From Embleya scabrispora (GTDB lineage Bacteria; Actinomycetota; Actinomycetes; Streptomycetales; Streptomycetaceae), in the NCBI RefSeq assembly GCF_002024165.1, contig NZ_MWQN01000003.1, positions 558,001 to 622,000 on the forward strand: a stretch of DNA of 64,000 bases, given 5' to 3'. The notes beneath the pieces were generated by a model. The model searched no databases. It saw nothing but the letters and a program-made list of their open reading frames with translations, and was not told where the DNA came from. Of the stretch, positions 1 to 56,272 are shown piece by piece (positions within the stretch are counted from its first letter, which is position 1; each line of letters starts with the position of its first letter). The position numbers were made by a program, and so were the translations under genes.

Positions 1-3000
1 CGCAGTCCGGTGTCGGCGGTGAGGCGGTTGCGCAGTTCCACGGCGGTGAGCGAATCGAAGCCGAGGTCGCGGAAGGCCCGGTCCGGATCCACCGCGCCCG
101 CCGACCCGTGGCCCAGCACCGCGGCGACCTGCGCGCGGACCATGTCGACGAGGACGTCCTCCCGGTCCGTCGCGGACAGTCCGGACAACCGCCGCCCGAG
201 CGAGGGCCCCGAGCCCGTCGTCTCGTCCGCCGCCACCCGCCGAGCCGGCCTCCGGGCGGGAGCGCGCGGCACATCGCCACCGATCGCCCGCTCGACCCGA
301 ACCCGGCGCATCTCCACGGACTCGGCACGCAACACCGGAGCACCCGTGCCGTCGGCCGCCAGCACGGTGACCGCGTCCACACCCCGGGGAACGAGTCGCA
401 CGCGCAGCCGTCGTGCCCCCGAGGCGTGCAGCGAGACGCCACGCCAGACACACGGCAGCGGGACCCCGTCGCCCGGAGCGCCCGACTCGATCCGGTCGTA
501 CGCCCGGAGCGCGAGGTCGAGCAACACCGGATGCAGGCCGTAGCGCCCGGCCTCGGCACGCTCCCGCTCACCGAGCACGACCTCCGCGTACACCTCCTCG
601 CCCACCCGCCAGGCCTGTTCCGGACCCTGGAAGGCGGGCCCGTACGGGCGGCCGCCTGCCCGAGCCCGATCCCGGACGGCATCGGTGTCCACCGCGACCG
701 CATCGGTCGGCGGCCAGGTGGTGAGGTCGAAGTCCGCCGCGGTGCCCCGCGGATCGAGTACGGCGGTGGCGTTGCGCTGCCAACCGCCTTCGGCCGAGCC
801 GCCGTTGCCGACCGGGCGGGAGTGCACGGTCAGTTCGCGACGGCCCGTCCCGTCCGGCGGGTCCACCACGACCTGTAGCCGCACTCCGCCGGTCGGCGGC
901 AGGATCAGCGGCGCGTCGAGGTCGAGTTCGTCGACACGGCCGCAGCCCACCTCGTCGGCCACCCGGATCGCCAGTTCCACCAGGGCCGTCGCGGGCAGCA
1001 CGGCGGCGTCGCCGATGGCGTGTTCCGCGACCCAGGGGTGCGTACGCGCCGAGATCGACCCGGTCAGCACCGACCGGCCGAGGCCGGACAGGGTGGTTCC
1101 GGCGCGCAGCAGCGGATGGTCCACGGGGGCGAGGCCGACCTCGTCCGCGCCGGCCCGGCCACCGCCGGATTCCAGCCAGTAGTGCCGGTGCCGGAACGCG
1201 TACGTCGGCAGCGGTACCCGCCGTCCGAATCCGGCGCCCAGGACCGCGTTCCACGCCACCGGCAGCCCGTGCACGTGGGCTTCCGCGAGCGAGCCGAGGA
1301 AACGGGCGACGTCCGGCCGGCCGCGGCGCAGCGTGCCGAGCGCGACCGCGGTGCGGTCCGTTTCGTCCAGCATCTGCTCGATGCCCGGTACCAGCAGGGG
1401 ATTCGGGCTGACCTCGACGAAGGCGGTGTGTCCGGCGTCGACGAGGCCGCGTACGGTCTCCTCGAAGCGCACGGTCTGCCGCAGGTTGCGATACCAGTAG
1501 TCGGCGTCGAGGCCGGTGGTGTCGTACCGGCCGGCGGTGACCGTCGAGTGGAACGGGATGCGGGCCGGGCGCGGTTCGATCCCGGTGAGGACGTCGACCA
1601 GCCGGTCACGGATCTCCTCCACCTGGGGGCTGTGCGAGGCGTACGTGGTGGGGATGCGCCAGTGGCGGATGCGCTCGGCCGCGTATTGCGCCGTGAGTTC
1701 GTCGAGGGCGGCGGTGTCGCCGGAGATCCCGGTGGAACCGGGGCCGTTGATCACGGCGATCGACAACCGGCCGGGCCACCGTCGCAACCGCGTGGCGACC
1801 CGGGCGGCGGATTCCCCGACGGAGAGCACGCCGCCGCGGCCGGCCAATACGGCGACGGTTTTGCCGCGTAGGGCGACGACCTTCGCGGAGTCGGCCAGGC
1901 TCAGGGCGCCCGCGACGTAGGCGGCGGCGATCTCCCCCTGCGAGTGGCCGACCACGGCGGCGGGTTCGACGCCGCAGGCGCGCCACAGTTCGGCCAGCGC
2001 GATCATCACCGCCCACAACACCGCCGGCAGGACGTCGACGCGGGTCATCCACGCCCGCGCGGTGTCGGCGTCGGCGCGCAGCAACTCTTCGAGGGACCAG
2101 TCCACATGCGGTGCGAGGGCCTGCTCGCACGCCGCTATCTGCGCGGCGAACACCGGCGCGCGGTCGAGTAGTTCGACCGCCATCCCGTACCACTCGGAGC
2201 CCTGGCCGGGGAAGACGAACACGACGCGTTCGCCGTATCGGGCCTGGCCCTTGGTCACCGCGGCGGTCGGGGTGCCGGCGGCGAGGCCCGCCAGCGCCTC
2301 TCTCAGTCGGTCACGGCCGCCGACCCGAACCACGGCGCGGTGGTCCAGCGCGGACCGGGTGGCGTGCAGGGAGTGGGCCAGGTCGGGCAGTGTGGCGTCC
2401 CGGCCGGCGTCGGTGTCCAAGTGGGCGTCCAGGCGCGCGGCCTGGGCCCGCAGGCCCTCGGGACTGTCCGCGGACAGGACGAACGGCAGTACGGCGGGGT
2501 CGGGCAACACCGGTGCGCCGGGCTCCCCTTCCGCGCCGGCGACCGGGGCCGCCTCGGGGGCCTGTTCGAGGATCAGGTGCGCGTTGGTACCGCTGATCCC
2601 GAAGGACGACACGCCCGCGCGGCGCGGTGTTCCCTCGCCGGGCCAACTCCTGGCCTCGGCGAGTACTTCGACGGCGCCCGCGCTCCAGTCGACGTGCGGG
2701 GTCGGCGCATCCACGTGCAGCGTCCCGGGCAGCACGCCGTGGCGCATCGCCATCACCATCTTGATGACCCCGGCCGCGCCGGCGGCGGCGGCGGTGTGGC
2801 CGATGTTGGATTTCACCGAGCCGATCCACAGCGGCCGTTCGAAGTCCCGGCCGCCGCCGTAGGTGGCGATCAGCGCCCGGGCCTCGATCGGGTCGCCGAG
2901 CCGGGTGCCGGTGCCGTGCGCCTCCACCGCGTCGATGTCGGCGGGAGCCAGGCCCGCGTTCGCCAACGCCGCCTCGATCACCCGCCGTTGTGCGGGGCCG

Positions 3001-3938
3001 TTGGGGGCGGTGAGGCCGTTGCTCGCGCCGTCCTGGTTGACCGCGCTGCCGCGTACCACGGCCAGTACGGGGTGGCCCCTGCGGCGCGCGTCGCTCAGCC
3101 GCTCGACCAGGAGCATCCCGACCCCCTCGGCCCACCCGGTGCCGTCGGCCGCGGCGGCGAACGACTTGCACCGGCCGTCGGCGGACAACACGCCCTGCCG
3201 GCTGAACTCGACGAAGACGGCCGGGTTCACGATGACGCTCGCCCCGCCCGCGAGCGCCATCGTGCACTCGCCGCCCCGCAGCGCCCGCACGGCGAGGTGC
3301 AGCGCCACCAGCGAGGACGAACACGCGGTGTCCACGGTCAGCGACGGGCCTTCCAGGCCGAGCACGTAGGACACCCGGCCCGACATCGCGCTGCCGACCC
3401 CGCCGGTGAGCGCGTATCCCTCGACCCCGTCGGGCAGGCGCTCGACCCCGAAGCCGTAGCCGCTGGGGGTGCCGCCGACGAAGACTCCGGTGGAACTGCC
3501 CTTCAGGGCGCGCCGATCGATCCCGGCCCGCTCGAACGCCTCCCACGAGGTCTCCAGGAGCAACCGCTGCTGCGGGTCCATGACCAGCGCCTCGTGCGGC
3601 GAGATCCCGAAGAATCCGGGATCGAACTCGCCCGCTTCGGCCAGGAATCCGCCCTCCCGCGTATAACTGGTGCCCCGGTGTTCGGGGTCGGGGTGGTACA
3701 GGTCGTCCACTGCCCAGCCGCGATCGTTCGGGAAGCCGCTCACCGCGTCCACGCCGTCGGCCACCAGCCGCCACAGGTCCTCGGGCGAGCGCACGCCGCC
3801 GGGGTAGCGGCAGGCCATACCGATCACGGCGATCGGCTCGGGTGGCCGCTCCAACTCGGCGATGCGGGCGCGGGCCCGCTGAAGGTCGACGATCGCGCGC
3901 TTGAGGTAGTCCCGCAGTCGGTCTTCGCCGCCGCTCAT
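1..3938 (-). CDS. Type I PKS, module 9 (KS-AT-DH0-ACP), 3' end cut off
   Basis: The reading frame is open from ATG at 3938 to the left edge, at least 1312 residues. A short N-terminal docking helix ([16 protein letters not shown]) precedes the ketosynthase, whose Cys lies near residue 205 in TACSSS. The acyltransferase shows GHSQGE near 665 and YASH near 767, which in this family marks methylmalonyl-CoA. A dehydratase-like region follows. Its first motif is [10 protein letters not shown], with the usual Gly replaced by Asp, and its second is DLALR where the family has D-x3-H/Q. No ketoreductase lies between it and the ACP (GFDS, near residue 1295). The module should therefore leave a beta-ketone and an alpha-methyl. 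The start overlaps the stop of the upstream gene as ATGA, which suggests translational coupling. Whether a thioesterase or another module follows cannot be seen. Confidence 0.93.
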
Positions 3939-6900
3939 GAGTGGTCACCTTTCGGGGCCTGCCCGGGGGTTTCGAGATGGTGGTCGAGCAGGGCGAACAG
4001 TTCGTCGTCGGAGGCGGCCTCGACGCCGGCTCCGTCGAGGCTCGTGGTGTCGTGCCGGTCGAGGGCGCCGAGCCGTTCGACGAAGCGCCGCATGCGCAGC
4101 GCGACCCGAGCCCGGACCTGCGGGTCCTCGTCGGCCACCCGGTCGAACGCGGCCTCCAGGCTGTCGAGTTCCGCCAGCACCGGGATGAGTACCGACTCGT
4201 CGCCGTCGGTCAGCGCGGCCCGCAGCCGGGCGGCCAGGGCAACGGGTGTCGGATGGTCGAACACCAGCGTGCTCGGCAGCTCGACGCCGGTCGCCCGACC
4301 GAGCCGGTCGCGCAGGTCGACGGCGGTCAGCGAGTCGAAGCCCAGGTCGCCGAACGCCTGGTCGGCCCGGATCCGCTCGGTCGAGGCGTGGCCAAGGACG
4401 GCCGCGACCTGTCGGCGTACGAGGTCGAGCAGGATCGTCTCGCGTTCCGCCGGTCCCGCCGCGGCCAACCGCCCGACAAGGCCCGGGTCCGCCGAGCCGG
4501 CGCCGGTGGCCGGTGCGGCGAGCGCGGCGTCGACCTCGGGCAGGCCGCGGAGCAGCGGGCTCGGGCGCGACGACGTGAAACTCGCGGCGAAGGCGCGCCA
4601 GTCGACGTCGGCGACGACCACATCGGCGTCGTCCCGGCCCACGGCGCGGGCCATCGCGGCTACCGCGGCCTGTGGGTCCATCGCGCGCAGGCCGAGCCGG
4701 GCGAGCCGGTCCCCGTCGGCCTGCTCGACCATGCCGCCCCCGGCCCACGGGCCCCAGGCGATCGACGTGGCGACCAGGCCGCGCGCGCGACGGTCCCGCG
4801 CGATCGCGTCGAGGTGTGCGTTGGCGGCCGCGTAGATGGCCTGGCCGCCGCTGCCCCAGATGCCGGCGATCGACGAGAAGAGCACGAAGGCCGCCAGCGG
4901 GCGCTCGCCCAGCACGGCGTCCAGGTGGGCGGCGCCGGCGGCCTTGCCCGCGATCACGCGCGCCGCCTCGACCGGATCGGTGTCCGCGATCAGGGCGGCC
5001 TGGACCACCCCGGCGGCGTGTACCACCGCACTCAGCGGCGGCCCGTCGGCGTCGATCCGCCCGATCAGACGCTCCACGGCGTGCCGGTCGGCCGTGTCGC
5101 ACCTCTCGATCAGCACGGCGACGCCGAGGGCGGACAGTTCGGCCGCGAGGTCTTGCGCGCCCGGGGCCCGCGCACCCCGACGCGCGGCCAGGACCACACG
5201 TTCCGCGCCCGCGCCCGCCGCCCAGCGCGCCACCCGGGCGCCGAGGCCGCCGGTGCCGCCGGTGATCAGTACCGTGCCGGCGGGCCGCCAGGGCCGGTCG
5301 GCGGTTCCGGCGGCGGGCGCGCGGACCAGGCGGCGCACGTGGACGCCGTCGGCACGGATCGCCACCTGGTCCTCGGCGGCGTGCGCGAGCACGGCGGCGA
5401 GCCGGGACCGGACGGCGTCGGACTCCTCCGCGACGGCGTCGACCGCGGGCCGCGTGGGGTCGGGGAGGTCCACGAGACCGCCCCAGAGGCCGGGCAGTTC
5501 GAGCGCGGCGGTACGGCCGAAGCCCCAGATCCGGGCCTGGTCGGCGGAGCCGAGCGGGTCACGCTCCGCGACGGACACCGCGCCGGAGGTCAGGCACCAC
5601 AATCTGCCTCCGGGTCGGGTGTCGGCGAATGCCCGGACGAGGGCGAGGGTGGCCGCCAAGCCGTGGGTGAGCCCCGGCAGGTCGGCGCGTTCGCCCGGCA
5701 GGTCGGACAGGAGCGAGAGCACACCGTCGAGTGGGCCGAGGCGGCGCAGGTGCTCGGCGAGGACGCCGCGATCGCACTGCGCCGCGTCGACCCGAAGCGG
5801 GATCACGGCGGCACCGCGCCCTTCGAGCGCTTGCACGCATGCGTTGGCATACGGGCTCGTCGCATGGCTCAGCACGAGCCAGGTGCCGGACGGTTCGACG
5901 CCGGATCGTTCGGTCCACGGGGCCCATTCGGCGCGATAGCGCCACCTGTCCGGGTCTCCGGTCGTGCGCGTGTCGGGCAACGGGTCGAGCCAGTAGCGCT
6001 GTCGCTGGAACGGGTAGGTGGGCAGGTCGACCGCCGCACCGCGCCCGGTGAGCAGTGCGGACCAGTCGACGGGTGTCCCGTACGCGTGCAGCGCACCCAA
6101 AGCGGCGATGAGCGTGGCCCGTTCCGGCCGATCCCGGCGAAGCAGCGCGGCGGTGGGCGTCTCGTCGGCCGGTGCCTCGTCGGCCGGCCGGACGGCCGGG
6201 CCGAGGCATTCGCGGGCCATCGCGGTCGGCGTCCCGTCGGGCCCGACGTCGACCAGTACGAGGTCGCCCAAAGCCCGCGCCGAGGCGACACAGTCCGCGA
6301 AGCGGACCGGTTCGCGTACCTGGCGCAGCCAGTAGTCCGGGCTCGCCAGCTCGCCGTCGCCGGCCACGGCGCCGGTGAGGTTGGACAACATCGGGGTCTG
6401 CGGGTCGGCGTAGGAGACGCCCTCCAGCACGGCGCGGAAGTCGGCCAGTATCGGCTCCATCCGCGCCGAGTGGAACGCGTGCCCGACCCGGAGCCGCCTG
6501 GTTCGCCGCCCCCGCTCCGCGAAGCGCGCGGCCACCGCCAGTACGGCGCCCTCGTCCCCCGAAACCACCACGGACGCCGGCCCGTTCACCGCGGCCACAC
6601 TCACCGTGCCGCGCCCGTCCAGGACGCCGCGCACCTCGTCCTCCGCGGCCCGCACCGCGACCATCGCCCCACCCGCAGGCAGCGCCTGCATCAACCGCCC
6701 CCGCGCCGCCACGACCGTCGCCGCATCCGCAAGCGACCACACACCGGCGACATGCGCGGCGGCCAACTCCCCGATCGAATGGCCCAGCAGCAACTCCGCC
6801 CGCACACCGAACGATTCGACCAGGCGGAACAGCGCGCACTCCACCGCGAACAAGCCGGCCTGGGCGAACACCGTCTCGTCCAGGAGCCCTTCGGTGCCCT

Positions 6901-8776
6901 CCGTCCCGAAGACCACGTCCCGCACCGAATACGCCACGTGCCCGGCCAACCGGTCGTCCAACGCGGACACGGCCTCGTCGAAGGCCGCCGCGAACACCGG
7001 GTACGCGGCGTGCAGTTCCCGTCCCATCCCGACGCGCTGACCGCCCTGCCCGCCGAAGAGGAACACCGGTCGGCGGTCGGCCCGTGCGCGGCCGACGGTG
7101 ACGGTGCCGATCGGGTCTCCTGTCGCGAGGGCGGCAAGGCCGGTGAGCAACTCGGCGCGGTCCACGGCCGTCACCACCGCCCGGTGCTCCAGTGCGGCGC
7201 GGCTGCCGGCCAGCGCGGCGGCGAGGTCGTCCGGGGCGATCCCGGCGCCTTCGCCGGTGAGGTGCGTGTGCAGCCGTTCGGCCTGGGCGGGAAGCGCCTG
7301 CGGTGTCGTGGCCGAGAGCAGGTACGGCAGTACGCCCGGGTCGACCCGCGCATCGGCGCTCGGCGCGTCGGCCGGCTCGGGCGGGCGGTATTCGAGCACG
7401 GTGTGTGCGTTCGTCCCGCTGATCCCGAACGACGACACGGCGGCCCGACGCGGCCGGCCCGTCTCCGGCCACGGACGCGCCTCGGTCGACAACTCCACCG
7501 TGCCGGCGGACCAGTCCACGTGTGGCGTCGGCGCATCGACGTGCAGCGTCTTCGGCAGCACGCCGTGCCGCATCGCCAACACCATCTTGATCACTCCGGC
7601 CACGCCCGCGGCGGCGGTGGTGTGGCCGATGTTGGACTTGAGCGAGCCCAATCGGACCGGCTCGTCCGCGTGGTGTTCCCGGCCGTAGGTGGCGATCAGG
7701 GCTTGGGCCTCGATCGGGTCGCCGAGCGGGGTGCCGGTGCCGTGTGCCTCGACGGCGTCCACGTCCCGCGCGTTCAGTCGGGCGTTCGCCAACGCCTTCC
7801 GGATCACCCGCTGTTGCGCGGGCCCGCTGGGCGCGGTCAGGCCGTTGCTCGCGCCGTCCTGGTTGACGGCCGAGCCGAGGATGGTCGCCAGCACGCGGTG
7901 GCCGTTGCGGCGCGCGTCGGACAGTCGTTCGACAAGCAGCATGCCGATACCCTCCGACCAGCCGGTACCGTCGGCGGCGGCCGCGAACGGCTTGCACCGG
8001 CCGTCGGCGGCGAGCACCCGCTGCCGGCTGAACTCCACGAACGCCGCCGGGTTCGCGTACACCGTGACACCTCCGGCCAGCGCCATGGAGCATTCCCCGC
8101 CACGCAGCGCCCGACCGGCCAGGTGCAGCGCGACCAGCGAGGACGAGCAGGCGGTGTCGACCGTGATCGCCGGGCCCTCCAGGCCGAAGGTGTAGGCGAG
8201 GCGGCCGGAGGCGACGCTCGCGGTATTCCCGGTGCCGAGGTAGCCGCCGAGTTCGTCGGGCACCCGCATTCCCGTCGGGTAGCCGATGTCGACGGCGCCC
8301 ACGAACACGCCGGTGTCGGAGCCGCGCAGTGTGGCGGGATCGATCCCGGCCCGTTCGAACACCTCCCAGGAGGTCTCCAGGAGGAGGCGCTGTTGCGGGT
8401 CCATCGCCAACGCCTCGCGCGGCGAGATGCCGAAGAAGCCCGCGTCGAAGTCGGTCGCGTGCTCGACGAAACCGCCCGAGCGCACGTAGCTGGTGCCGGA
8501 ATGGTCGGGGTCGGGGTGGTAGAGCCCGTCCAGCGGCCATCCCCGGTCGGTGGGGAAGTCGGTCAGTCCGTCGCGGCCGTCGGCCAGCATGCGCCACAGG
8601 TCCTCGGGTGAGCCGACGCCGCCCGGGAAGCGGCAGGCCATACCGACGATCGCGATCGGCTCCCTCTCCCGCTCCTCCACGCGACGCAACTCCGCGCGCG
8701 CGTCATGCAGTTCCGCGGCCACGCGCTTGAGGTAGCCGACCAGCTTCCGATTGTCCGGCGGGTCGCGGTCCGGCAT
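3935..8776 (-). CDS. Type I PKS, module 8 (KS-AT-KR-ACP)
   Basis: This is a single-module polyketide synthase of 1613 aa. An N-terminal docking helix ([16 protein letters not shown]) is followed by a ketosynthase with TACSSS near residue 211 and EAHGTGT and NIGHT further on. The acyltransferase has GHSIGE near 666 and HAFH near 768, the malonyl-CoA signature. The ketoreductase has an intact GGTGGLG site near 1176 and YAAAN near 1318. Its Trp in IWGSGGQ, with no LDD motif, marks an A-type enzyme, so an L-configured hydroxyl is inferred. The ACP serine is in GFDS near 1481, and an acidic C-terminal docking segment ends the protein. A strong ribosome binding site, AGGAAGGA, lies at 8788-8795, 11 bases before the ATG. 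The AT-coding DNA is nearly identical to that of module 3. Confidence 0.96.
6421..7022. repeat. Homogenised AT-coding tract, modules 8 and 3
   Basis: By eye this stretch matches 33320-33921 almost base for base at a constant offset of 26899. The differences cluster in a few short patches. Both copies encode the middle of a malonyl-type acyltransferase. The flanking DNA diverges much more. Confidence 0.8.
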
Positions 8777-8795
8777 GGTCGTGTCGATCCTTCCT

Positions 8796-8873
8796 GGGCT
8801 GTACGGGCTGTACGGGCTGTACGGCTGTACGGCTGTACGGCTGTACGGGCCATACGGGCTCTACGGGCTGAAC
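8796..8873. repeat. Short tandem repeat in the spacer between two PKS genes
   Basis: Nine tandem units fill 78 bp: three of GGGCTGTAC, three of GGCTGTAC (one base shorter), then three diverged nonamers (GGGCCATAC, GGGCTCTAC, GGGCTGAAC). The block occupies most of the 116-bp gap between the module 7 stop and the module 8 start, the only gap over 50 bp within the PKS series. Because units of 8 and 9 alternate, it keeps no reading frame and is not coding. It may vary in copy number by slippage. A regulatory role is not shown. Confidence 0.9.
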
Positions 8874-8892
8874 AGAGCCGGGCGAACCGGGT

Positions 8893-11800
8893 TCAGGGCG
8901 AACCGAGTTCACGGTCGATGAAGTCCAGCACCTCGTCCGCGCTCGCCTCCTCGAGCCGCGCGGCGACGGATGTCGAGGCGGCTCCGGCGGCGTACTCCTC
9001 TCGGCCGCGCCACTCGGTGCGCAGCCGGTCGAGCCGGCCGGCGATCTCGGCGCGGTCGTCCTCGTCGGCCCGCACCTCGGCGAGCCGGACGGCCAGGCGG
9101 TCGAGTTCGGCGAGCAGTGCGGGTACTACGGCGGGGGTGTCGGTGTCGGGGACGAGTTCGGCGTACAGGTGGTCCGCGAGGTCGGCCGGAGTCGGGTGGT
9201 CGAAGACCAGGGTGGCGGGCAGCCGCAGGTCGGTGGCGGCGTCCAGGCGGTTGCGCAGTTCCACGGCGGTCAGCGAGTCGAAGCCGATGTCGGTGAAGCC
9301 TCGGTAAGGGTCCACCGCGTCCGCGCCGCCGAGGCCCAGCACGGTAGCCGCGTGGCCGCGGACCAGGTCGATCAGCAGCCTGCGCCGGTCCGCCTCGGTC
9401 GACGCGGCCAGGCGCCGCCCCAGATCGGCGGCCGGCTCCGCTCGGGCGGTGGTGCGGGCACTTCGCCGCCCCGGGCCGCGCACCAGGCCGCGCAGCACGG
9501 CGGGCACCGGGCCGGCGCCGCGTTCCAGGGCCGCGCCGTCGAAACGCAGCGGCAGCAGCAGCGGATCAGGCAGGTTCGTGGCGGCATCGAACAGGGCCAA
9601 CCCCTGCGCGGCGGACAACGGCACCATCCCGGAGCGCGCCGCCCTGGCCCGGTCGGCCGGACCGAGGCCGGCGGTGATCCCGCTCGCCTGGTCCCACAAC
9701 CCCCAGGCCAGCGACGCGCCGGGCAGCCCGGCCGCCCGGCGGTGGTGGGCCAGTGCGTCCAGGAAGGTATTGGCCGCCGCGTAGGCGCCCTGTCCCGCGC
9801 CGCCGAGCACCCCGGCCACCGACGAGTACAGCACGAACATCGCGAGGTCCGCGTCGGCGGTCAGCCGGTGCAGGTTCATCGCGCCGTCGATCTTCGGGCG
9901 CAACACCCGGCGCAGCCCGTCGCCGGTCATGGACGTGACGACACCGTCCTCGACCACGCCGGCGGCGTGCACGACGGCCGTCAGGGGATGCGCGGCGGGC
10001 ACCCGGCCCAGTACGTCGGCCAGTTGCTCCCGGTCGGCGACGTCGCAGGCGACGATCTCGACGTGCCGGGCGCCCAGCCGGCACAGTTCCTCGCGCAGTG
10101 CCCGCGCGCCCGGGGCCCGCTCGCCGGCCCGACCGGTGAGCAGCAGGTGTTCGGCGCCGTGCTCGGTCACCAGGTGCCGGGCCAGCAGGCCGCCGAGGGC
10201 GCCGGTGCCCCCGGTGATCAGTACGGTGCCGTCGGGGTCGGGTGCGGCGGGCACGGTCAGCACGATCTTGCCGATGTGCCTGGCCTGGCTCATGTACCGG
10301 TACGCGTGCGCAGCCTCCCGGATGTCCCAGGTGCGCACCGGGAGCAGGTGCAGGGCGCCGCCCTCGACGAGGTCGACGATCTCGGTGAGGATGCGGCCGA
10401 TGCGCTCGGGGCCGGGGTCGACGAAGGGGTGGTAGGTCACCCCCGGGTACCGCGCGGCGACGGCTTCGGGGTCGCGCCGGTCCGTCTTGCCGAGTTCCAC
10501 CAGCCGGCCGCCGGGTGCCAGCAGGCGCAGCGAGGCGTCCACGTACTCCCGGGCCAGCGCGTTGAGGACGACGTCGACGCCGCGGCCGTCCCCCGCGCCG
10601 GCGAAGGCGTGCTCGAAGTCGAGCGAGCGGGAGGAGGCGATGTGCCGGTCGTCCAGGCCGAGTTCGCGTAGAATGTCCCACTTGCCGGGGCTCGCCGTGG
10701 CGTAGACCTCGGCGCCGAGGTGTCGGGCCAGTTGTACGGCGGCCATGCCCACGCCGCCGGCGGCCGCGTGGATCAGGACGGATTCGCCCGGCTTGAGGTC
10801 GGCGACCTCGAACAGGGCGTGGTGGGCGGTTTGGAAGGCGACCGGCATGCCGGCGGCCTCGGCGAACGTCCATCCCGCCGGAATGCGCACGACGGCCCGG
10901 TGGTCGACGACGGCGACCGGGCCTAGCGCGGCGGGCACCCGGCCCGTCACGCGGTCGCCGGGTCGCCGGTCGCCAACGGCCGAGCCGACTTCGGTGACGA
11001 TCCCGGCGGCCTCGGTGCCCATGCCGACGTGCGCGGGTACCACGCCCAGACCGACCAGCACGTCGCGGAAGTTGAGGCCGGCGGCGCGGACCGCGAGCCG
11101 GATCTCGTGCGGGGCGAGCGGGCGGGCGGCGTCCGGGAAGGGCAGCGGCGCGAGGCGGTCCAGGTCGCCCGCGCCGGTGGTGTCGAGCACCCAGGGGCCG
11201 TCGGGGGCGAGGGGCAGCAGTCCGGAATCGTCGCCCCGGACGATCCTCGGGACCAGCGCCGCGCCCGCGCGCAGTGCGATCTGCGACTCGCCGGCGGCGA
11301 ACGCCGTCCGGACGGCGTCGGGCAGCGTGGTCGGTGTGTCGGCGTCCGGGTCGATGTCGACGAGCAGGAAGCGCCCCGGGTGTTCGGCCTGTACCGAACA
11401 CAGTAGGCCCCGGACGGACGCGTTGGCCGGGTCGGCGACGCCCTCACCGGGGCGGGCCGCGACGGCGCCGCGCGTGAGGACGACCAGGCGGGTCGCCGCC
11501 CACGCGGGGTGCGCCAACCACTGTCGGACGGTGTGCAGCATGCGCTCCACGGCCCGGCCGGCCGAGTCGGGCAGTGCCGCCGGGGGCTCGGGGGCGAGCG
11601 GGAGCAGGACCACCGCCGGGGCCACGGACTCGTCGGCGAGCGCCGCGAGTTCGGGATGCTCACGCGCCGCGATCCCGGCCCGCTCCAGTGCGCCGCCCAC
11701 GCCGAAGGGATCGGGGGCGAGCACGGCCCACGGGCCGCCGGCCGGGTCCTGCGGCCGCTCGGGTGCGGCGAGCGGGATCCAGTCGAGCCGGTACAGCTCG

Positions 11801-15681: not shown

Positions 15682-15689
15682 ACGTCGGG

Positions 15690-26156: not shown

Positions 26157-26204
26157 GGCAGTCCTCCGGTGCTGGGGTCGCGGTGTGCGTGGGGCCGGGG
26201 CGGG

Positions 26205-38600: not shown

Positions 38601-41600
38601 CAGACCACCGAGTACAGGGAATCCGCCGCCGAGCCGGCGCTCGACCGGGCCCGGTCGACGGCGCGCAGTTCGAGCGCCTCGGCCGAGAGCACCGGCCGCC
38701 CGGTGCCGTCGGCGGCCTGCACGACGATCCGATCGGGATCGCCGTCGACCGGCGCCAGCCGCACCCGCAGCACCGACGCCCCGACCGCATGCACCGTAAG
38801 CCCCTGCCACCCGAACGGCAGCCGCATCGTGCCCGTCGGAGCCGCATCGACGTCGGCACCGACAAGGCCGTGCAACGCGGCGTCCAGCAGCGCGGGGTGC
38901 ACCGCGAAACGGCCCGCCTCGCCGCGGAGTTCGTCCGGCAACCGCACGTCGGCGAACAACTCGCCGTGCCGGCCCCGGTACAGCGCCCGCAGCCCCCGGA
39001 ACGCGGGCCCATAACCGTATCCGCCGTCGGCGGCACGAGCGTAGAAGCCGTCGAGGTCGACCGGTCGCGCACCGGGCGGGGGCCACGCCACCAGGTCGAA
39101 CGCCGCGTCGGTGACCGTCTCGGCCAGGAATCCGGCGGCGTGCCGGGTCCATTCGCCGTCCTCGCCCGACGCCTCGTCCCGGGAGTACACCGCGATCGCC
39201 CGGCGACCGTCGGCGGCCGGCGACTCCACCCGCACCTGAAGGGCGCACGCGCCGTGCTCGGGCACCACGAGCGGCGTGTGCAGCGTCAGTTCGTCGACGC
39301 GTCCGCAGTCCACCCGATCGCCCGCCTGAACGGCCAGGTCCGCAAACGCGGTCCCGGGCAACAACACCGTCCCCGCGACGGCGTGATCGCGCAACCACGG
39401 CTGGGCCCGGAGGCAGATCCGGCCGGTCAGCACGACCTCGTCGGCCCCGGCCAGGCGTACCGTCGCCGCGAGCAACGGGTGACCGGCCGCGACCAGTCCG
39501 AGCCCGGCGGCATCGACCGGTGTGCCCGCCACGTCGTCGAGCCAGTAGTGCCGACGCCGGAAGGCATGGGTGGGCAGATCGAGGTGCCCGTGCACGGTCG
39601 GCGCGAGCACCGCCGACCAGTCGATCGAGCAACCGCGTACATGGGCCAGCGCGAGTGCCGTCGACAACGCCTCGTGCTCCGGGCGGTCCCGGCGCAGCAC
39701 GGAGCCGGCGGCAACGTCGGGCGTGCCGGTCTCGATCCCGGTCCACGCGGCAAGACAGTCCTGCACCAGGGCGGTCAGCACCCCGTCCGGCCCCAGTTCG
39801 AGGAAGGTTCCCACGCCCGCCGCGCGCAGTTCCCGCACACCGTCCGCGAAACGCACGGCTCCGCGCACCTGCCGTACCCAGTAGTCCGGTTCGGTCAACT
39901 CCTCGGCGCTCGCGAGCCGTCCGGTCAGGGTGGAGACGATCGGCAGTGTGGGTGGGCCGAAGGTCACCCCCTCCAGCACGCCCCGGAATTCGGCCGCCAT
40001 CGCGTCCATCCGCGGCGAGTGGGACGCGCGGCTGATCGTCAATCGTTTGGTCTTGCGTCCGCGCGCCGCGAACTCGGCCGCCACCCGGAGCACCGGCTCC
40101 TCGTCACCGGAGATCACCACCGACGTCGGACCGTTCAGTGCTGCGATCCCCGCCGTGTCGCCGACACCCGCCGTCTCCAGCGCCGCCGTCACCTCGTCCT
40201 CGCCGGCCTGTACCGCGACCATCGCGCCACCGGGTGGAAGCGCCTGCATCAACCGCCCACGCGCCGCGACGACCTCGGCGGCGTCCGCGAGCGACCAGAC
40301 ACCCGCGACATGCGCGGCGGCCACCTCTCCGATCGAATGCCCCAGCAGGAACTGTGGCCGCAGGCCGAAGAATTCGAGCAACCGGAACAGCGCCACCTCG
40401 ATCGCGAAGAGCGCCGCCTGGGTGAACACCGTCTCGTCCAGCAGTCCCGCGGTGCCCTCCGCCCCGAACACCACATCCCGCACCGAATGCGCGACATGCC
40501 CGGCCAGTCGGCGATCCAACTCCGCTGCCGCGGCGTCGAAGCTCGTCGCGAACGCCGGAAAGACGGCGTGCAGTTCGCGCCCCATCCCGACCCGTTGACT
40601 CCCCTGCCCGGCGAACAGGAACGCAAGCTCCCCCGCCCCGAGCACCGATCCCCGGACGACGCCCGTCCCGAACTCGCCCGCCGCCAGCGCATCCAACCCG
40701 CCCGACAGCGCGGCACGCGTGGAACCGACCACCACGGCGCGCTCCTCGAGCGCCGCACGCGAGCCGGCCAGCGCCGAGGCGACCGCGGCAAGGTCGAGTT
40801 CGGGATTCTCGTCCAGATAGGCGGCCAGAGTCGCCGCCTGGGCACGCAGGCCTTCGTCGGACCTCGCCGAAACGTGCCAGGCGAGGATCCGTTCGCCGGC
40901 CGTGACTTCGGTCGCCTCCGCGACGAACGCCGGTTCGGGTTCCTGCTCCAGGAGAACATGGGCGTTGGTGCCGCTCGCGCCGAACGACGAGACACCGGCC
41001 CGGCGGGGGCGCCCGCTGTCGGGCCACTCGCGCGCCTCGGTGAGCAGTTCGACCGTGCCCGCCGACCAGTCGACGTGCGGGGACGGCTCGTCGCAGTGCA
41101 GCGTCCGGGGCAACACGCCCGCGCGCATCGCCATCACCATCTTGATCACCCCGGCCACCCCGGCGGCGGCCTGGGCGTGGCCGATGTTCGACTTCAAAGA
41201 CCCCAGGTACAGCGGCCGTTCGGCGCTGCGCCCCCGACCGTAGGTGGCGATCAGCGCCTGGGCCTCGATCGGATCGCCGAGCGTGGTACCGGTACCGTGT
41301 GCCTCGACCGCGTCGACGTCGCCGGCCGACAGCCCCGCGTTCGCCAGCGCCTGCCGGATGACCCGCTGCTGCGCCGAACCGTTCGGCGCCGTCAGCCCGT
41401 TGCTCGCCCCGTCCTGATTGATCGCCGTACCCCGCACCGTCGCCAACACCCGATGCCCGCGCCGCCGCGCGTCGGACAACCGCTCCACCAGCAGCACACC
41501 GACACCCTCCGACCAGCCCGCGCCGTCCGCCGCGGCCGAGAACGCCTTGCACCGGCCGTCCGGCGCCAACCCCCGCTGCCGACTGAACTCGACGAAGACC

Positions 41601-44600
41601 TGCGGCGTGGCCATCACCGTCACGCCACCGGCCAGCGCCATCGAACACTCCCCGTTGCGCACGGCCTGAGCGGCCAGATGCAGCGCGACCAACGACGAGG
41701 AGCACGCGGTATCCACGGTCACCGCCGGGCCCTCGAACCCGAACGTGTAGGCGATCCGTCCCGAGGCGACGCTGCCGGAGTTGCCGAGCAGCAGGTAGCC
41801 GTCCACACCCTCGGGTACCTTCCGCATGCCCGACGCGTAGTCGTGGTACATCACCCCGACGAATACGCCGGTTCGACTGCCGCGCAGCGTGCCGGGATCG
41901 ATCCCGGCGCGCTCCAGCACCTGCCACGAGGTCTCCAGCAACAGCCGCTGCTGCGGATCCATCGCCAACGCCTCGCGCGGCGATACGTCGAAGAACCCGG
42001 CGTCGAACTGCCCGGCTTCGTGCAGGAATCCGCCCTCGCGGGCGTAGCTCTTTCCGGAGGCCGCCGGGTCGGGGTCGTACAGGCCGGCCAGGTCCCAGCC
42101 GCGGTTGGACGGGAATGGCGAGACGACGTCCCGGCCGTCGGCGACCAGGCGCCAAAGGTCCTCGGGCGATTCCACTCCGCCGGGGTAGCGGCAGGCCATC
42201 CCGACGATGGCGATCGGGTCGTCGTCCACCGGCGCGGCGGGCGCCATGGTGGGCGGCGCGTCCCGGGTGCCCACGAGTTCCCGGCGGACCTCGCGCAGCA
42301 GTGCCGCCGGTGTGGGGTGGTCGAAGACGAGGGTGGCGGGCAGGCGCAGGCCGGTGGCCGTGTTGAGCCGGTTGCGCAGGTCGAGGGCGGTCAGCGAGTC
42401 GAAGCCGAGCGACTTGAAGGTCGCGGTGAAGACGATGTCGGCATCCGTGGGGAGGCCGAGTACGGCCGCCACGTGTTCGCGGATCACCGCCGCCAGGGCC
42501 CGATCCCGCTCGGCCTCCGGCAGCGCGCCGAGCCGCTGGTCGGGCGCGGGCCCCGACCGGAGGGCGCCCGCGGCGGCCGCGGCGGGGCGGGCCGGAGCGC
42601 GCACGAGATCGCGCAACATGCCCGCCGGCACGCCGCTCCCGGCGCGGGCACGGAGCGCGGGCGGGTCCAACGCGGCCGGGACCAACAGGGCCTCCGTCGA
42701 ACCGAGCGCGGCGTCGAAGAGGCGCAGGGCCTGCTCCGTGGCGAGCGGTCCGATGCCGAGCCGGCGCATACGCTGCCGGTCGGCGTCGCTCATCGCACCC
42801 GTCATCCCGCCGGCCTCGCCCCACAACCCCCAGGCGAGCGAGGTGGCCGGGAGGCCGGCGGCGCGACGGGCGTGGGCGAGTGCGTCCAGGTAGGTGTTCG
42901 CCGCCGCGTAGTTCGCCTGACCCGGACCGCCCAGGATGCCGGCGATCGAGGAGAAGAGCACGAAGGCGGCGAGGTCGTGGCCGACGGTCAGCTCGTGCAG
43001 GTTGACCGCGCCGTCGACCTTGGCGCGCAGCACGGCGTGCAACCTGTCGTCGGTCATGGCCGCGACCAGACCGTCGTCCAGCAGTCCGGCGGCGTGTACC
43101 ACACCCGTCAGCGGGACCCGCAGGCGATCCAATACCCCGCGCAATACGTCCCGATCGGCCACATCACCCGCCTCGACCACCACCGACGCACCCAGCGCCG
43201 CCAACTCCTCGATCAACTCGGGGACCCCGGGGGCCCGTTCACCCCGCCGGCCGAGCAGCACCAGATTGCGCACCCCGTGCCGCGAGACGATCCGCCGGGC
43301 CACCAACCCGCCCAGCAGGCCGGTGCCGCCGGTGATCAGGACCGTCCCGTCACCGAAGCGACCCACTGCCTCGACGGGGGAAGCGGCGTGCCGGACCAAT
43401 CGCGGCACCGAAACCGCGCCCCCGCGTACCGCCGACTCCCTTTCCCCGGACGCCAGTACGCTCGGCAGGGCGGCCGTCCACTCCGCGTCGTCGACGTCCG
43501 TCACGACGAAACGATCGGGGTGCTCGGTCGCCGCCGACCGCATCAACCCCCACACAGCCGACGCCGCGAGGCCCGGCAGCGCCGAGGCTTCCGACCCCGT
43601 CGAGACACCCACCGCACCCCGCGTCACCACGACCAGTCGCGCCCCGGCGAACCGTTCGTCGGCAAGCCACTCCCGCACCACGGACGACACCCGAACCGCC
43701 ATCCGATGGGCCGCCATAGCCCTGTCGTCGTCCGCCGTCGAGTCGGCGAAACAGGGCAGGACAACCACCTCGGGTACGCCGTCCGCAGCCACCGCCCCGA
43801 GATCGGGGGCATCCGCGCCGAGTACCCGGATCGCACCGGCGAAGGCGGCATCGACCCCACCGGCCGGAACCCACTCGACGCGGTACAGATCGTGTTCCGC
43901 GGCGGGCCGCGCGGCGGCAAGCACGTCGTGGGCGATCGGGCGCAACGTCAGCGCCTCGATCACGGCGACCGGACTCCCGCTCGCATCGGCCAGCGACACC
44001 CGGACGCCGTCCGGCCCGGAGGGGGACAGCCGTACCCGCAGGTGGGAGGCGCCGCTCGCGTGCAGCGTCAGCCCCTTGAAGACGAACGGCAACAGCACCC
44101 GCTCGCCGCCCGGGGACAGTGCGGCGTGCAACGCGGCGTCGAGCAGCGCCGGGTGCAGTCCGAAACGGCCCGCATTCGCCGCTTCCTCATCGGGCAGCGC
44201 CACCTCGGCGTACGTGTCGTCGCCCACCCGCCATGCGGCCCGCAGGCCCTGGAACGCGGGCCCGTACGCATAGCCGCCGCGCTCCAGGTCGGCGTGGAAG
44301 GCTTCGAGATCCACCGGTTCCGCACCGGTCGGCGGCCAGGTCTCCGACCCGAAGGACGCGGTTTGCGCCGATCCGCCTGCCGAGAGCGTCCCGACGGCGT
44401 GCCGGGTCCAGTCCGACGCCGCCTCGTCCGCGCTGCGGGCGTACACGGCGACCGAACGCAACCCGTCGGCTTCGGCCGCGCCGACCACGACCTGGATCTC
44501 CAGCGCGCCGTGCTCGGGGATCACCAGCGGCGCCTCCAGCGCGAGTTCGGCGAGCCGACCGCAGCCGACCTCGTCCCCCGCCCGGATCGCCAGTTCCACG

Positions 44601-47600
44601 AACGCCGTACCCGGCAACAGCACCGTCCCGGCAACCACGTGATCCCCGAGCCAGGCGTGCGTGGACAACGACAGTCGTCCCGTCGACAGGACTCCCCGCC
44701 CGTCGCCGAGCCGCACCACCGCTCCGAGCAGCGCATGGCGCGCCGAGGCCTGACCGAGGCCGCGCGCGTCACCGTGGGACGCCGAACGGGCCGCCCAGTA
44801 TCGGCGACGCCGGAAGGCGTAGGTCGGCAACTCGAGGTCCAAGGAGGCGGGTTCGCCCACCAGCGGCGACCAGTCCACGGCGAGCCCGTTGACGTGCGCC
44901 TCGGCGAGTGCCGCGGTGAAGCGCTCCGGGCCGCCCTCACCGCGCCGCAACGTCCCCAGCACCACCGCCTCGGCCCCGGCGGCTTCCACCGTGCTCTCGA
45001 TCGGCGTGGTCAACACCGGATGAGCGCTCGCCTCGACAAACGCATCGAACCCCTGAGCCAACAGCAACCGCACGGTCTCCTCGAAACGCACCGTGCGCCG
45101 CAGATTGGCATACCAGTAGTCGGCGTCGAGGGCCGTGGACTCCAGCCGTTCGGCGGTCACCGTCGAATAGAACGGCACTGACGGCGCCACCGGATCGATG
45201 TCCGCCAACTCGGCGAGCAGCCGGTCCCGGATCGACTCCACCCGCTCCGAATGCGACGCGTAGTCCACCGGCACCCGACGCGCCCACACCCCCCGCGCCT
45301 CACACACCGCGACCAACTCGTCCACCGCACCCGCATCACCGGACACCGTCACCGACACCGGCCCGTTCACCGCCGCGACCGACAACCGCTCCCCGAACGG
45401 ACCCAACAACGCGACCACGTCCGCATACGCCAACGACACCGACACCATCGCCCCGGAACCCGCCAACACCCCCAGCGCCCGGCTCCGCAACGCCACCACC
45501 TTCGCGCCATCCGCCAACGACAACGCCCCCGCCACACACGCAGCCGCGATCTCCCCCTGCGAATGACCCACCACCGCACCCGGCACCACACCGAACGAAC
45601 ACCACAACTCCGCAAGCGAGACCATCACCGCCCACAACACCGGCTGCACCACCTCCACCCGGCCCTGCCACACCCCCGACCCCGACCGCAGAACCGACAC
45701 CAACGACCAATCCACAAACGGCCCCAATGCCACCTCGCACTCCGCGATCCGCGCGGCAAACACCGGGAACTCGTCAAGCAACCCCGCGCCCATCCCCACC
45801 CACTGCGACCCCTGCCCCGGAAACACCAACACCGTCCGCCCCGAAGAGCGAGCCATGCCCGAGACAACGCCCGGAAGGGGCTTCTCCGCACTCAACGCCG
45901 CCAATCCGGCGACGAGTTCGGCCCGGTCCGAGGCCATTACGACGCCCCGGCGCGCCAGCAGCGATCGCGACGTGATCAGGGCCGACGCCAAGTCGGCCGG
46001 CCCGAGATCGGGTTCGTCTCCGACGAACCGCGCCAGTCGGGCCGCCTGCGCCCGCAGACCGTCGCGGCCGTGCCCGGACACCACGAAGGGGAGCAGCGCG
46101 CCCGTACGCGAATCGGGCGGTGGCACCGCCCGCACGCTCTCGGCCGCCACCTGTTCGACGATCACGTGCGCGTTGGTCCCGCTGATCCCGAACGACGAGA
46201 TCCCGGCCCTGCGCGGACGGCCCGCCTCGGGCCACTCCCGGGCCCGGGTCAACAACTCCACCGCACCCGCCGACCAGTCGACGTGCGCGGACGGCTCGTC
46301 GGCGTGCAGGGTCCGCGGCAGTACGCCCGCGCGCATCGCCATCACCATCTTGATCACCCCGGCCACCCCGGCGGCGGCCTGGGCGTGGCCGATGTTCGAC
46401 TTCAAAGACCCCAGGTACAGCGGCCGTTCGGCGCTCCGTCCCCGACCGTAGGTGGCGATCAGCGCCTGGGCCTCGATCGGGTCGCCGAGCGTGGTACCGG
46501 TGCCGTGTGCCTCGACCGCGTCGACGTCGCCGGCCGACAGCCCCGCGTTCGCCAGCGCCTGCCGGATGACCCGCTGCTGCGACGAACCGTTCGGCGCCGT
46601 CAGCCCGTTGCTCGCCCCGTCCTGATTGATCGCCGTACCGCGCACCGTGGCCAACACCCGGTGCCCGTGCCGCCGCGCGTCGGACAACCGCTCCACCAGC
46701 AGCACACCGACGCCCTCCGACCAGCCGGTGCCGTCCGCCGCGGCCGAGAACGCCTTGCACCGGCCGTCCGGCGCCAACCCCCGCTGCCGACCGAACTCGA
46801 CGAACATGCCCGGGGTCGACATCACCGTTGCTCCGGCCGCCAACGCCATCGAGCACTCGCCGGCGCGCAGGGCCTGCGCCGCGAGGTGCAGGCCGACCAG
46901 CGACGACGAGCACGCCGTATCGACCGTGACGGCCGGCCCCTCGAAGCCGAACGTGTAGGCGAGCCGTCCGGACAGGACGCCGGCGGCGCTGCCGGTGAGC
47001 CGGTAGCCCTCGGAGCCGTCGACGGCCGCGTCGAGCCGGGCGCCGTAGTCCTGGCCCATCGCGCCGACGAACACACCGGTCCGACTGCCCTTCAGGGCGG
47101 CCGGGTCGATCCCGGCCCGTTCGAAGACCTCCCACGAGGTCTCCAGCAACAGCCGCTGCTGCGGATCCATCGCCGACGCCTCGCGCGGCGAGATCCCGAA
47201 GAAGTCCGCGTCGAAGTCGGCGGCGCCGGCCAGGAAGCCGCCGTACCGGACGTAGCCGGTACTCACGAAGCCCGGATCGGGGTCGGCATCCGGGTCGTGG
47301 AGCGCCGCCGGGTCCCACCCCCGGTCGTCGGGGAAGGGCGTGATGGCGTCGCCGCCCGCGGCCACGAGTCGCCACAGGTCCTCGGGGGAGGTGATGCCGC
47401 CGGGCAGCCGGCAGGCCATGCCGACGATGGCGATCGGGTCGCTGTCGGTCGGCTGTTCCGCCGCCGTTTCCAGCTCCGGCCGCTCGGGATCGGGTGCCGT
47501 GTCGAGGAGCAGGCCGGCCAGATGCCGTGCGACCGCGACCGGTGTGGGGTGGTCGTATGCGAGCGTCGTGGGCAGCCGCAGTCCGGTGTCGGTGTTGATC

Positions 47601-50539
47601 CGGTTGCGCAGTTCGACGGCACTCGGGGAATCCAGACCCAGGGCCTCGAACGTCTGCTCGCCGTCGGCCGCGCCCAACGCGGGCCGGTCCACGACCGTCG
47701 CGGTGTGCGCGAACACCAGTTCGTATACCGCCTGTTCCCGCTCATCACGGGCGAGCCCGGCCACCCGATCGGCCCACACCGACCGCGCCTGCCCGCGGGT
47801 CGCGGCGGATGTGTCGGCCGTACCGCCGACCCTGAAGCGCTCACGCTGGAACGCGTACGTGGGCAGGTCGACCCGACGCGCTCCCGGCCCCGGGAGCGGG
47901 TTCCAGTCGACCGTGACGCCGCAGGTGTACGCCTCGGCGAGCGCGGTGTGGAAGCGCTCGGGACCGCCCTGACCGCGGCGGAGCGTGCCGAGCGCCGAAG
48001 CGTCCGCGCCGGCGTCCTCGATCGTCTCCAGGATGCTGGTGACGAGCACGGGGTGTGCGCCGACTTCGATGAAGACGTCGTGCCCCCCGGCGAGGAGGGT
48101 CCGAACGGCCTGCTCGAAGCGCACGGTCCGGCGCAGGTTGGCGTACCAGTACTCGGCGTCGAGGGTGGTGGTGTCCACCGGCGCGCCGGTCACCGACGAG
48201 CAGAACGGGATGCGGGACGGGCGCGGCCGGATGTCCGTCAGGTCGCGGAGCAGGGCCGTGCGGGTTCCGGTGACCTGGGGAGAGTGCGAGGCGTAGTCGA
48301 TCGGGACCCTGCGGGCCCGGGTGCCCTGGGCCGCGCAGGCGACGAGGAACGCGTCGAGTGCGTCCGGCTCGCCCGAGACGACGACGGACGCCGGGCCGTT
48401 GACGGCCGCGACCGACAGGCGCCCGTCGAAGGGGGCGATCAGCGCGTCGATCCGCTCGGCCGAGACGCCCACCGAGACCATGCCGCCGCGGCCGGACAGG
48501 TCCAGGAGGATACGGCCGCGCAGGGCCACGACCTTCGCACCGTCCGCGAGGGTGAGCGCGCCGGCGACGCACGCGGCGGCTATCTCGCCCTGGGAGTGGC
48601 CCAGCACGGCGGCGGGTCGTACGCCGAAGGAGCCCCACAACTCGGCGAGCGAGACCATGACCGCCCAGAGCGCGGGTTGTACGACGTCGGCCCGCTCCAG
48701 CCAGTCCGCGGACGCCGAGCGCAGGGTCGACACCACCGAGCGGTCCACGTAGGGCGCGAGCGCCGCGTCGCAGTCCGCGATCCGTTGGGCGAACACCGGT
48801 GCGCGGTCGAGGAGTGCGGCGGCCATGCCGAGCCATTGCGATCCCTGGCCGGGGAAGACCAGCACCGCGCGTCCGGCGGCTCGGGCCCGCCCGGCCACCA
48901 CCCGCGGCACCGGTTCCCCGGCGGCGAGCGCGCGCAGACCCGCGACCGCGTCGGCCCGATTGCCGGCGAACACCACACCCCGGTGCTCGAACGCCGACCG
49001 CGTCGCCAGGAGCGAGTGCGCGATGTCGGGCAGATCCGGTTCCGGCCGGTCGCCGACGAAGCGAGCGAGTCGCGCCGCCTGGGCGCGCAAGGCCTGGTCG
49101 GTGCGGCCGGAGACGAGCAGGGGCAGCCCGCCGGGGGCGGCCGAAGCCGGGACTGCGGCGCGGTGGGGCCCGGTCTCGACCTGTGACCTGCTCTCGGGCG
49201 CGAACCCCGCCTCGGAGAGCACTACATGGCAGTTCGTCCCACCCATGCCGAACGAACTCACCCCGGCGATCCGCAGCCCCGCCGACTCCGCCGCATTCGC
49301 CGGCCCCGGTGCCGGCCACGCCGTCGACTCCGTGGCCACCGCCAACCGCAGTTCCGCGAACGGGATCTCCGGATTCGGCTTCGCGTGGTTCAGACTCGCC
49401 GGAATCTCCCCATGGGAAAGCACCAGCGCCGCCTTCACGAACCCGACCACTCCGGCCGCGGCCTCCAGGTGACCGACATTGGTCTTCACCGAACCCACCG
49501 GCAGCACCCGGTCCGCACCGCGCCCGGCCCCGAGCACGGCGCCCAGTGCGGCGGCCTCGATCGGGTCGCCGACCCTGGTTCCCGTTCCGTGCAACTCGAC
49601 GTAGCCCACCCGGGCCGGGTCCACGTCCGCGTGCTCGTACGCCCGGCGCAACACGTCCCGTTGCCCGCTCGTGTCGGGAGCGGTCAGCGTCTCGCCACCC
49701 CCGTCGTTGTTGACGGCGCTGCCACGCACGAGGCAGTGGATCCGGTCGCCGTCCGCGAGGGCGCGCGGCAGTGGCTTGAGCACCACGACGGCGCCGCCCT
49801 CGCCGCGAACGTAGCCGTTGGCGCCGGCGGCGAAGGTGTGGCAGCGACCGTCCGGGGACAGCGCGCCGAAACGCTCCAGGCGGTCGGTGGACCGCGCGGT
49901 CAGGATCAGGTTGACCCCGCCGGCGAGGGCCGTTTCGGATTCGCCGGAGCGCAGGCTTGCGCAGGCCGTGTGCACGGCGACCAGGGAGGAGGACTGGCCG
50001 GTGTCCACGGTGAGGCTCGGGCCGCCGGCTCGAAGGAAGTAGGAGACCCGGTTGGCGACCATGCTGCGGTGCTGACCCGTGACGGCGTGAGCCGTGGCCG
50101 GGTTCGGGTCTTCGCCCCCGAGCAGCAGCGCGTAGTCGTCGGAACCGGCGGCGGCGAACACCCCGGTGCGGGTGCCGGCCAGGGTGGCCGCGACGATGCC
50201 CGCGTCCTCCAGTGCCTCCCAGGCCAGTTCGAGCATCAGCCGCTGATGGGGGTCCATCGTGGCGGCCTCGCGCCGGGAGATGCCGAAGAAGGCCGGGTCG
50301 AAGCCGTCGATCGAGGCGAGGAAGGACCCGCGACCCGACATGCCGCCGATGCCCGGACGGTCCGCGGGCGCCGGCCCGATGGTGTCCGCGCCCGTGCGCA
50401 GCAACCGCCACAGATCCGCCGGACCGTCCACGCCGGGCAGTCGGCACGCCATGCCGACGACGGCGATCGGCTCGTGCCGGTGCGGACCGGAATCCCGGTT
50501 CGCGAACGGGTCGTCGCCCGGGCGGTCCGCACCTACCAT
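35690..50539 (-). CDS. Type I PKS, loading module (KSQ-AT-ACP) plus modules 1 and 2
   Basis: This 4949-aa protein starts the assembly line. There is no N-terminal docking helix, as expected for a first subunit. The loading ketosynthase has Gln at residue 182 where the active-site Cys should be (DTGQSSS). Its AT carries YASH (methylmalonyl), so decarboxylation to a propionyl starter is inferred. The loading ACP reads GLDS. Module 1 has KS (Cys near 1212), AT with YASH near 1763, DH ([15 protein letters not shown]), a B-type KR with LDD (GGTGLLGG near 2403) and ACP near 2715. Module 2 has KS (Cys near 2946), AT with GHSIGE but an unusual RASH motif near 3505, DH ([15 protein letters not shown]), ER (GGVGMAAVR near 4288), KR (GGTGTLGA near 4468) and ACP near 4778. 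The tail is Pro/Asp-rich after an acidic docking segment. GAAAGG lies upstream of the ATG. Confidence 0.97.
40945..41610. repeat. Homogenised KS-coding tract, modules 2 and 1
   Basis: This matches 46153-46818 in the same gene at an offset of 5208. It covers the C-terminal half of the ketosynthase, from near the Asp-Gly-Ala-Ser-Asn segment to the end. Synonymous sites are shared as well as amino acids. Confidence 0.8.
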
Positions 50540-56255: not shown

Positions 56256-56272
56256 CCGGATCAGGCTAGTGC

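Follow-up and report, generated by a model that had tools for sequence, protein, structure and literature searches.

The genome of Embleya scabrispora holds an intact, uncharacterised gene cluster that, by its sequence, is a cis-AT modular type I polyketide synthase (PKS) with ten extension modules spread over seven proteins, PKS1 to PKS7. From its domain content, and by analogy with the releasing KS of calcimycin biosynthesis, we consider it probable that this line works without a thioesterase (TE), that PKS7 acts last, and that the finished chain is released by a KS at the end of PKS7. The modules follow the ordered KS-AT-(DH/ER/KR)-ACP layout of cis-AT lines, with matching docking domains. 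The cluster is of interest mainly for this release unit and for a module found in only one of two sister species.

The stretch of DNA analysed here, referred to as the window, is 64,000 nucleotides long (C3:558001-622000 of E. scabrispora GCF_002024165.1, contig NZ_MWQN01000003.1; genome 10.96 Mb). Positions to its left are numbered such that 0 is the base before window position 1. By Pfam domains and motif scripts, the six proteins encoded on the minus strand of window positions 1-50539 comprise a KSQ loading module followed by nine extension modules (Table 1). A first-pass annotation had already read a loading module and nine modules in order, which the Pfam domains and catalytic motifs confirmed, and had noted that the left part was missing. 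Inspection of the sequence left of position 1 located that part in the genome: the window edge cuts the ACP of M9, the PKS6 gene ends at -237, and PKS7 lies beyond it. An uncharacterised syntenic cluster in Embleya hyalina NBRC 13850 has seven PKS genes in identical order, with about 90-92% DNA identity and the same terminal unit.

Table 1. Positions of the PKS genes, the individually delimited modules and the adjacent regulator (window numbering; mal, malonyl; mmal, methylmalonyl)
Feature	Position	Strand	Description
PKS1	35690..50539	-	4949 aa: loading module + M1 + M2; H1-class C-terminal docking region
Loading module (PKS1)	about 47441-50473	-	KSQ-AT-ACP (Pfam and motifs)
M1 (PKS1)	42221-47440	-	KS-AT(mmal)-DH-KR-ACP (Pfam and motifs)
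M2 (PKS1)	down to 35690	-	KS-AT(malonyl-type, atypical RASH)-DH-ER-KR-ACP (Pfam and motifs)
PKS2	26205..35693	-	3162 aa: M3 KS-AT(mal)-KR-ACP; M4 KS-AT(mmal)-KR(broken)-ACP
PKS3	15690..26156	-	3488 aa: M5 KS-AT(mmal)-DH-ER-KR-ACP; M6 KS-AT(mmal)-DH(broken)-ACP
PKS4	8893..15681	-	2262 aa: M7 KS-AT(mal)-DH-ER-KR-ACP; start codon uncertain within 15600-15681
PKS5	3935..8776	-	1613 aa: M8 KS-AT(mal)-KR-ACP; KS start hybrid relative to E. hyalina
PKS6	1..3938, continuing to -237	-	1391 aa: M9 KS-AT(mmal)-DH-ACP without KR or TE; H2-class C-terminal docking region
PKS7	-8497..-293 (C3:549503-557707), likely start near -8090	+	M10 KS-AT(mmal)-DH(broken)-KR-ACP, then KS-AT(dead), stop
LAL-type LuxR regulator	51173..53965	+	AAA_16 + GerE; divergent from PKS1; probable cluster regulator

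To the right of the PKS genes lie, in order, the LAL regulator, an MFS exporter, an HxlR regulator, a SnoaL-like gene and an alpha/beta hydrolase. The called open frames of the HxlR regulator (55704-56396, minus strand) and the SnoaL-like gene (56107-56787, plus strand) overlap; their true starts are probably inside these frames, which would make them divergent neighbours. Left of PKS7, Pfam identified a DUF1707 gene, a SLAC1 transporter and a formate dehydrogenase-like molybdopterin oxidoreductase with its Fe-S subunit. Three alpha/beta-hydrolase genes are distributed over both sides of the cluster (window 57936-58964, L001:13380-14243 and L001:14288-15160), and Pfam gave no glycosyltransferase, P450 or thioesterase-family match among 30 flanking frames. 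Further right, an Exo-like class A beta-lactamase (60498-61442, minus strand), scoring below the cut-off of the Exo model and above the general class A cut-off, lies near a beta-lactamase-fold hydrolase at 61482-62786.

Building blocks and reductive steps were assigned by the general motif rules for AT extender specificity and for A- and B-type KRs. The loading module carries the KSQ motif DTGQSSS and the AT motifs GHSQGE and YASH, and a KSQ-AT with methylmalonyl motifs implies a propionate starter. Methylmalonyl-type ATs (YASH) are found in M1, M4, M5, M6 and M9, the M10 AT of PKS7 is of the same type, and malonyl-type ATs (HAFH) are found in M3, M7 and M8. The M2 AT has the malonyl-type GHSIGE yet reads RASH in place of the standard motif, in E. 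scabrispora and E. hyalina alike, so its extender is uncertain. The KR motifs are of the tryptophan (A) type in M3 and M8 and of the xDD (B) type in M1 and M10. The M4 KR is broken, having lost the nucleotide motif and the catalytic Asn. M6 combines a broken DH, and M9 a DH, with the absence of any KR, so neither DH can act.

These motifs fit the M9-stage chain derived earlier (propionate start, one methyl-branched alkene, hydroxyls at C5 and C15, ketones at C3, C9 and C13), and the spacing of the C5 hydroxyl and C9 ketone does permit the six-membered hemiketal that had been suggested. The module string underlying that structure is correct, but the structure itself most likely represents only an intermediate, since M10 was found to the left. 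The M10 DH is without its catalytic stretch (its first half scores 26.2 bits against a Pfam cut-off of 27) and the M10 KR motifs are intact, a combination that should leave a hydroxyl at C3. M10 moves every position by two, to hydroxyls at C3, C7 and C17 and ketones at C5, C11 and C15. The M10-stage chain is thus predicted to contain a trisubstituted alkene, C20=C21, with three hydroxyls and three ketones; the predicted free acid is C29H50O8 (526.351 Da) if M2 uses malonate and C30H52O8 if it takes methylmalonate, with one propionate starter, six or seven methylmalonate units according to M2, and malonate for the remainder. Renumbered, the possible hemiketal would join the C7 hydroxyl and the C11 ketone.

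PKS7 stops straight after a truncated AT, with no ACP, TE or C-terminal docking region. The E. hyalina copy of this terminal unit was aligned with ten window modules and with eight outside modules, whose rows end within the AT. The GQGS stretch, the serine of GHSxGE and most of the small subdomain are gone from the terminal AT, and the window and E. hyalina copies agree in these losses; the serine motif reads GHG in the former and GRG in the latter. The terminal KS retains Cys, His, Lys and His. It reads DTGCSSS and GTKVH, in place of the DTACSSS and, where aligned, GTNAH of the extension KSs. This KS is 97% identical between the two species, and its dN/dS of 0.092 is the lowest among twelve KSs (range 0.092-0.216; the next values are 0.107 and 0.110). 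The terminal linker and AT gave dN/dS values of 0.671 and 0.458, comparable to those of the broken DHs of M6 (0.452) and M10 (0.488). With 0.092 for the KS against 0.458 for the AT, the terminal KS is kept by selection and the adjoining AT far less so. The E. hyalina copy was modelled with AlphaFold at a mean pLDDT of 61.7, too uncertain for use.

The terminal unit is present in two of the four Embleya genomes examined. A homologue occurs in a genome from another genus of the same family (G076), where the KS is 61% identical, carries both DTGCSSS and GTKVH, and is followed by a degenerate AT. The G076 protein also has a MonB/LasB/SalBIII-family domain at its C terminus (LasB 1e-38, SalBIII 5e-32); a MonB/SalBIII-type cyclase domain is absent from PKS7 of both the window species and E. 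hyalina. On a separate contig of G076, a locus of 4800 bases (L046, C100) has two MonB-type genes on opposite strands beside PKS fragments and a gene that, by eye, resembles a type II thioesterase; this locus possibly belongs to the same pathway as the terminal protein encoded on contig C246.

The terminal KS clade looks rare among the genomes examined, as judged from sequence surveys with overlapping samples. An HMM was built from the three clade KSs, and the window genome and G076, being in the model, score high by construction: the window genome gave 907 bits, and no other scored locus among 216 class-wide genomes exceeded 616 (best 8 candidates per genome); G076 gave 838 bits, and no other scored locus among 70 genomes from its genus exceeded 626 (best 25 candidates per genome). 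Among 101 genomes of the family (best 17 candidates each), four passed 1e-162, of which three had the motif (G000, G001 and G076) and one was ordinary (G069). When G076 supplied the query against 220 family genomes (best 8 candidates each), three passed 1e-168 and only G076 had the motif; G000 and G001 themselves fell below this threshold, so distant members can escape such a survey. Other KSs at 45-62% identity were rejected as clade members, with none of 26 KSs in 18 loci qualifying (two loci yielded no KS, and 23 of the 26 had a readable loop). The KSs of G069, G164 and G224 were likewise ordinary (DTACS, and GTNAH where readable).

Because PKS7 is encoded on the opposite strand, it could be argued that PKS7 is inactive or belongs to another pathway and that the line stops at M9, with the M9-stage chain as product. 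We consider this very improbable. The PKS6 and PKS7 genes are convergent, tail to tail, and their ends are only 55 bp apart (120 bp in E. hyalina). M9 ends in a docking head instead of a TE, and its class is the only one that fits the PKS7 tail; heads and tails pair almost exclusively within a class, according to the accessible text of Thattai et al. (PMC1994986). Docking classes were assigned here by eye, and automatic labelling recognised just half of each test pair. By this reading, the five junctions from PKS1 to PKS6 share one class, and the PKS6 head was assigned to a different class (H2) from the heads of PKS1-PKS5, with no structure match. E-values for the tails are weak: the PKS5 tail gave 0.11 with the DEBS2/3 docking structure 1pzr and 0.21 with the tail of CalA3, and the PKS7 tail gave 0.06 with the PikAIII-PikAIV docking fusion 3f5h, with a chance coiled coil, 9e5c, slightly better (0.049). 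Four adjacent PKS gene pairs from other loci paired by class, again by eye (two H2-T2, two H1-T1 or H1-T1-like). The pairing recurs in G076, where the homologous terminal protein starts with a T2 tail and follows, on the same strand, a gene ending in an H2 head. With an H2 head and a T2 tail set against the class of the other junctions, PKS6 to PKS7 is the only class-consistent order, and we strongly infer that PKS7 takes over the chain from PKS6 by way of an H2-T2 docking pair. PKS6 would thus deliver the M9-stage chain, to which M10 would add methylmalonate before reducing C3 to the hydroxyl.

From M10, the chain is proposed to move to the Cys of the terminal KS. A dead AT and the lack of an ACP mean that this KS has no means of elongation within its own protein. 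Most likely it would free the chain by passing it on to water or to some other nucleophile; hydrolysis or such a transfer is our best guess for the release mode. Pfam found no TE domain in the seven PKS proteins, the scan covering all but the last 79 aa of PKS6 (the ACP end and docking region). The full condensation set Cys-His-His-Lys kept by the terminal KS would also suit the formation of one more C-C bond with a unit supplied in trans, on a free ACP or as a second chain. Free-standing KSs in alpha-pyrone pathways make bonds of this kind. This course is improbable here: the terminal KS has no following ACP, PKS7 has no C-terminal docking region, and no separate ACP or AT was found among the 30 flanking frames scanned. 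A somewhat stronger contender, still unlikely in our view, is that the KS-AT is the decaying remnant of an eleventh module and that the M10 thioester either cyclises spontaneously to a lactone or pyranone or is cleaved by a discrete thioesterase or hydrolase. The relaxed linker and truncated, relaxed AT are what such decay would produce, the hydroxyls and ketones near C1 of the M10-stage chain could cyclise, and alpha/beta-hydrolase genes flank the cluster on both sides. Decay is harder to square with a KS whose catalytic residues are complete and whose dN/dS is the lowest of the twelve, and with a homologue in another genus that shares the altered motifs. Release by the terminal KS is therefore preferred, although the flanking alpha/beta hydrolases, or a free thioesterase elsewhere in the genome, could hydrolyse the chain instead.

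The closest functional parallel is CalA3 of calcimycin biosynthesis, which the available text of its report (PMC10006239) describes as a demonstrated chain-releasing KS without an ACP and as the sole release enzyme of the pathway. Its AT is inactive through a change of the catalytic Ser to Gly (PMC10006239), and CalA3 uses 3-hydroxyanthranilate. PKS7 likewise has a terminal KS with Cys-His-His, an inactive AT and no ACP, in a line with no TE in its PKS proteins. In contrast to CalA3, which is a separate KS-AT-DH-KR protein with an H1-T1-like tail, the PKS7 unit is fused behind M10 and is without DH and KR. CalA3 is also no nearer to it by sequence than ordinary modules are: the CalA3 structures 8i4y/7wvz match at E 9e-139 against 2e-174 for Lsd14, with several DEBS chains also better. 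The starters differ too: calcimycin is primed with pyrrole 2-carboxylic acid (available text of PMC10006239), whereas the window cluster is predicted to use propionate via its KSQ-AT. Embleyamycins and goondoxazoles are calcimycin-type products of Embleya and Streptomyces, as cited in the accessible part of PMC13024270; one set comes from the same genus.

A second parallel is indanomycin, for which the available text of PMC6830212 and PMC4648038 describes ten predicted elongating modules followed by an eleventh with Cyc11, proposed to form a tetrahydropyran before hydrolytic release. Cyc11 is likened there to the SalBIII/LasB family (PMC4648038), the family of the domain carried by the G076 homologue of the terminal unit; the indanomycin protein in this comparison is IdmP. 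The spacing of the C3 and C7 hydroxyls in the M10-stage chain would suit an indanomycin-type pyran. Unlike indanomycin, with its pyrrole starter and Cyc11, the window line is propionate-started and lacks a cyclase domain in its terminal unit. The possibility that the SnoaL-like gene at 56107-56787 encodes a detached cyclase was weighed; the gene is probably unrelated, having no PDB match at E 0.01, whereas the G076 domain strongly matches LasB, MonB and SalBIII. The best MonB relative in the window genome lies on a different contig (E 4.1e-5, 28% identity), and the flanking frames scanned contain no MonC-type epoxidase.

No characterised PKS with this module string was met in literature and genome searches, whose scope excluded MIBiG and most subscription papers. 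The earlier statement to that effect holds for the published matches and genomes covered; the left sequence adds M10 and the terminal KS-dead-AT unit. Neither predicted formula was met among the literature matches listed. Actinoallolide was considered as the product, and its features are insufficient to decide. The genome paper of E. australiensis, in its accessible part, reports L-156602, nybomycin and leptomycin/kazusamycin clusters in its strain. The last of these, a type I PKS, was set aside solely by product structure, since leptomycin/kazusamycin has conjugated dienes.

The two Embleya clusters differ in one module. PKS5 of E. hyalina begins with an extra 3111-bp KS-AT-ACP module (G001 C18:245279-248504) that is absent from the window species. 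In this module the KS His is replaced by Ser (EASATGT) and the AT Ser by Gly (GHGHGE), the ACP Ser is intact, and no reductive domains were seen. PKS5 of the window species shares with the extra module the docking tail and the first residues of the KS and then continues as the M8 KS, with the switch between aa 41 and 60 (about 8597-8656). A KS-to-KS junction stands where E. hyalina has the extra module. Frame and docking are kept, so that both species should make the same chain. At 66-72% identity to ordinary extension KSs, the extra KS is no recent internal copy, which favours loss in the window species; on the two genomes compared, such a loss appears more likely than a gain in E. hyalina. 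Elsewhere, the M2 and M5 ER-KR segments of the window's cluster are near-identical over long stretches, as are stretches of the M1 and M5 ATs within the E. hyalina cluster, and it is the M1 and M5 ATs that differ most between the two species (82% and 78% identity). These patterns suggest internal gene conversion. A block at C3 about 537900-545460 (window -20100 to -12540), holding Hsp20, Rieske and formate dehydrogenase-like genes, is unmatched in the E. hyalina stretch; a run of N sits at that place in the assembly, and the difference may be no more than an assembly gap.

A broader and more tentative reading, which we hold to be possible but rather less than probable, is that the terminal unit represents a rare lineage of releasing KSs. 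In this lineage condensation would have given way to acyl transfer, first in company with a MonB-type cyclase, as in G076, and later without it, as in Embleya, where the unit would offload a propionate-started chain bearing three hydroxyls and three ketones to some nucleophile. The Embleya pair would also illustrate the natural removal of a dead module by KS-to-KS crossover.

How thioesterase-less cis-AT lines release their chains is a question that keeps recurring, and CalA3 is the sole case met with a solved mechanism. The cluster described here is a second, differently built candidate for KS-mediated release. Two further natural versions, from E. hyalina without and from G076 with a cyclase, make the release step directly testable, and the predicted acid supplies a mass to look for. 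The sister species pair, in which a broken module is present in one member only while frame and docking are kept, bears on the evolution and engineering of modular PKSs.
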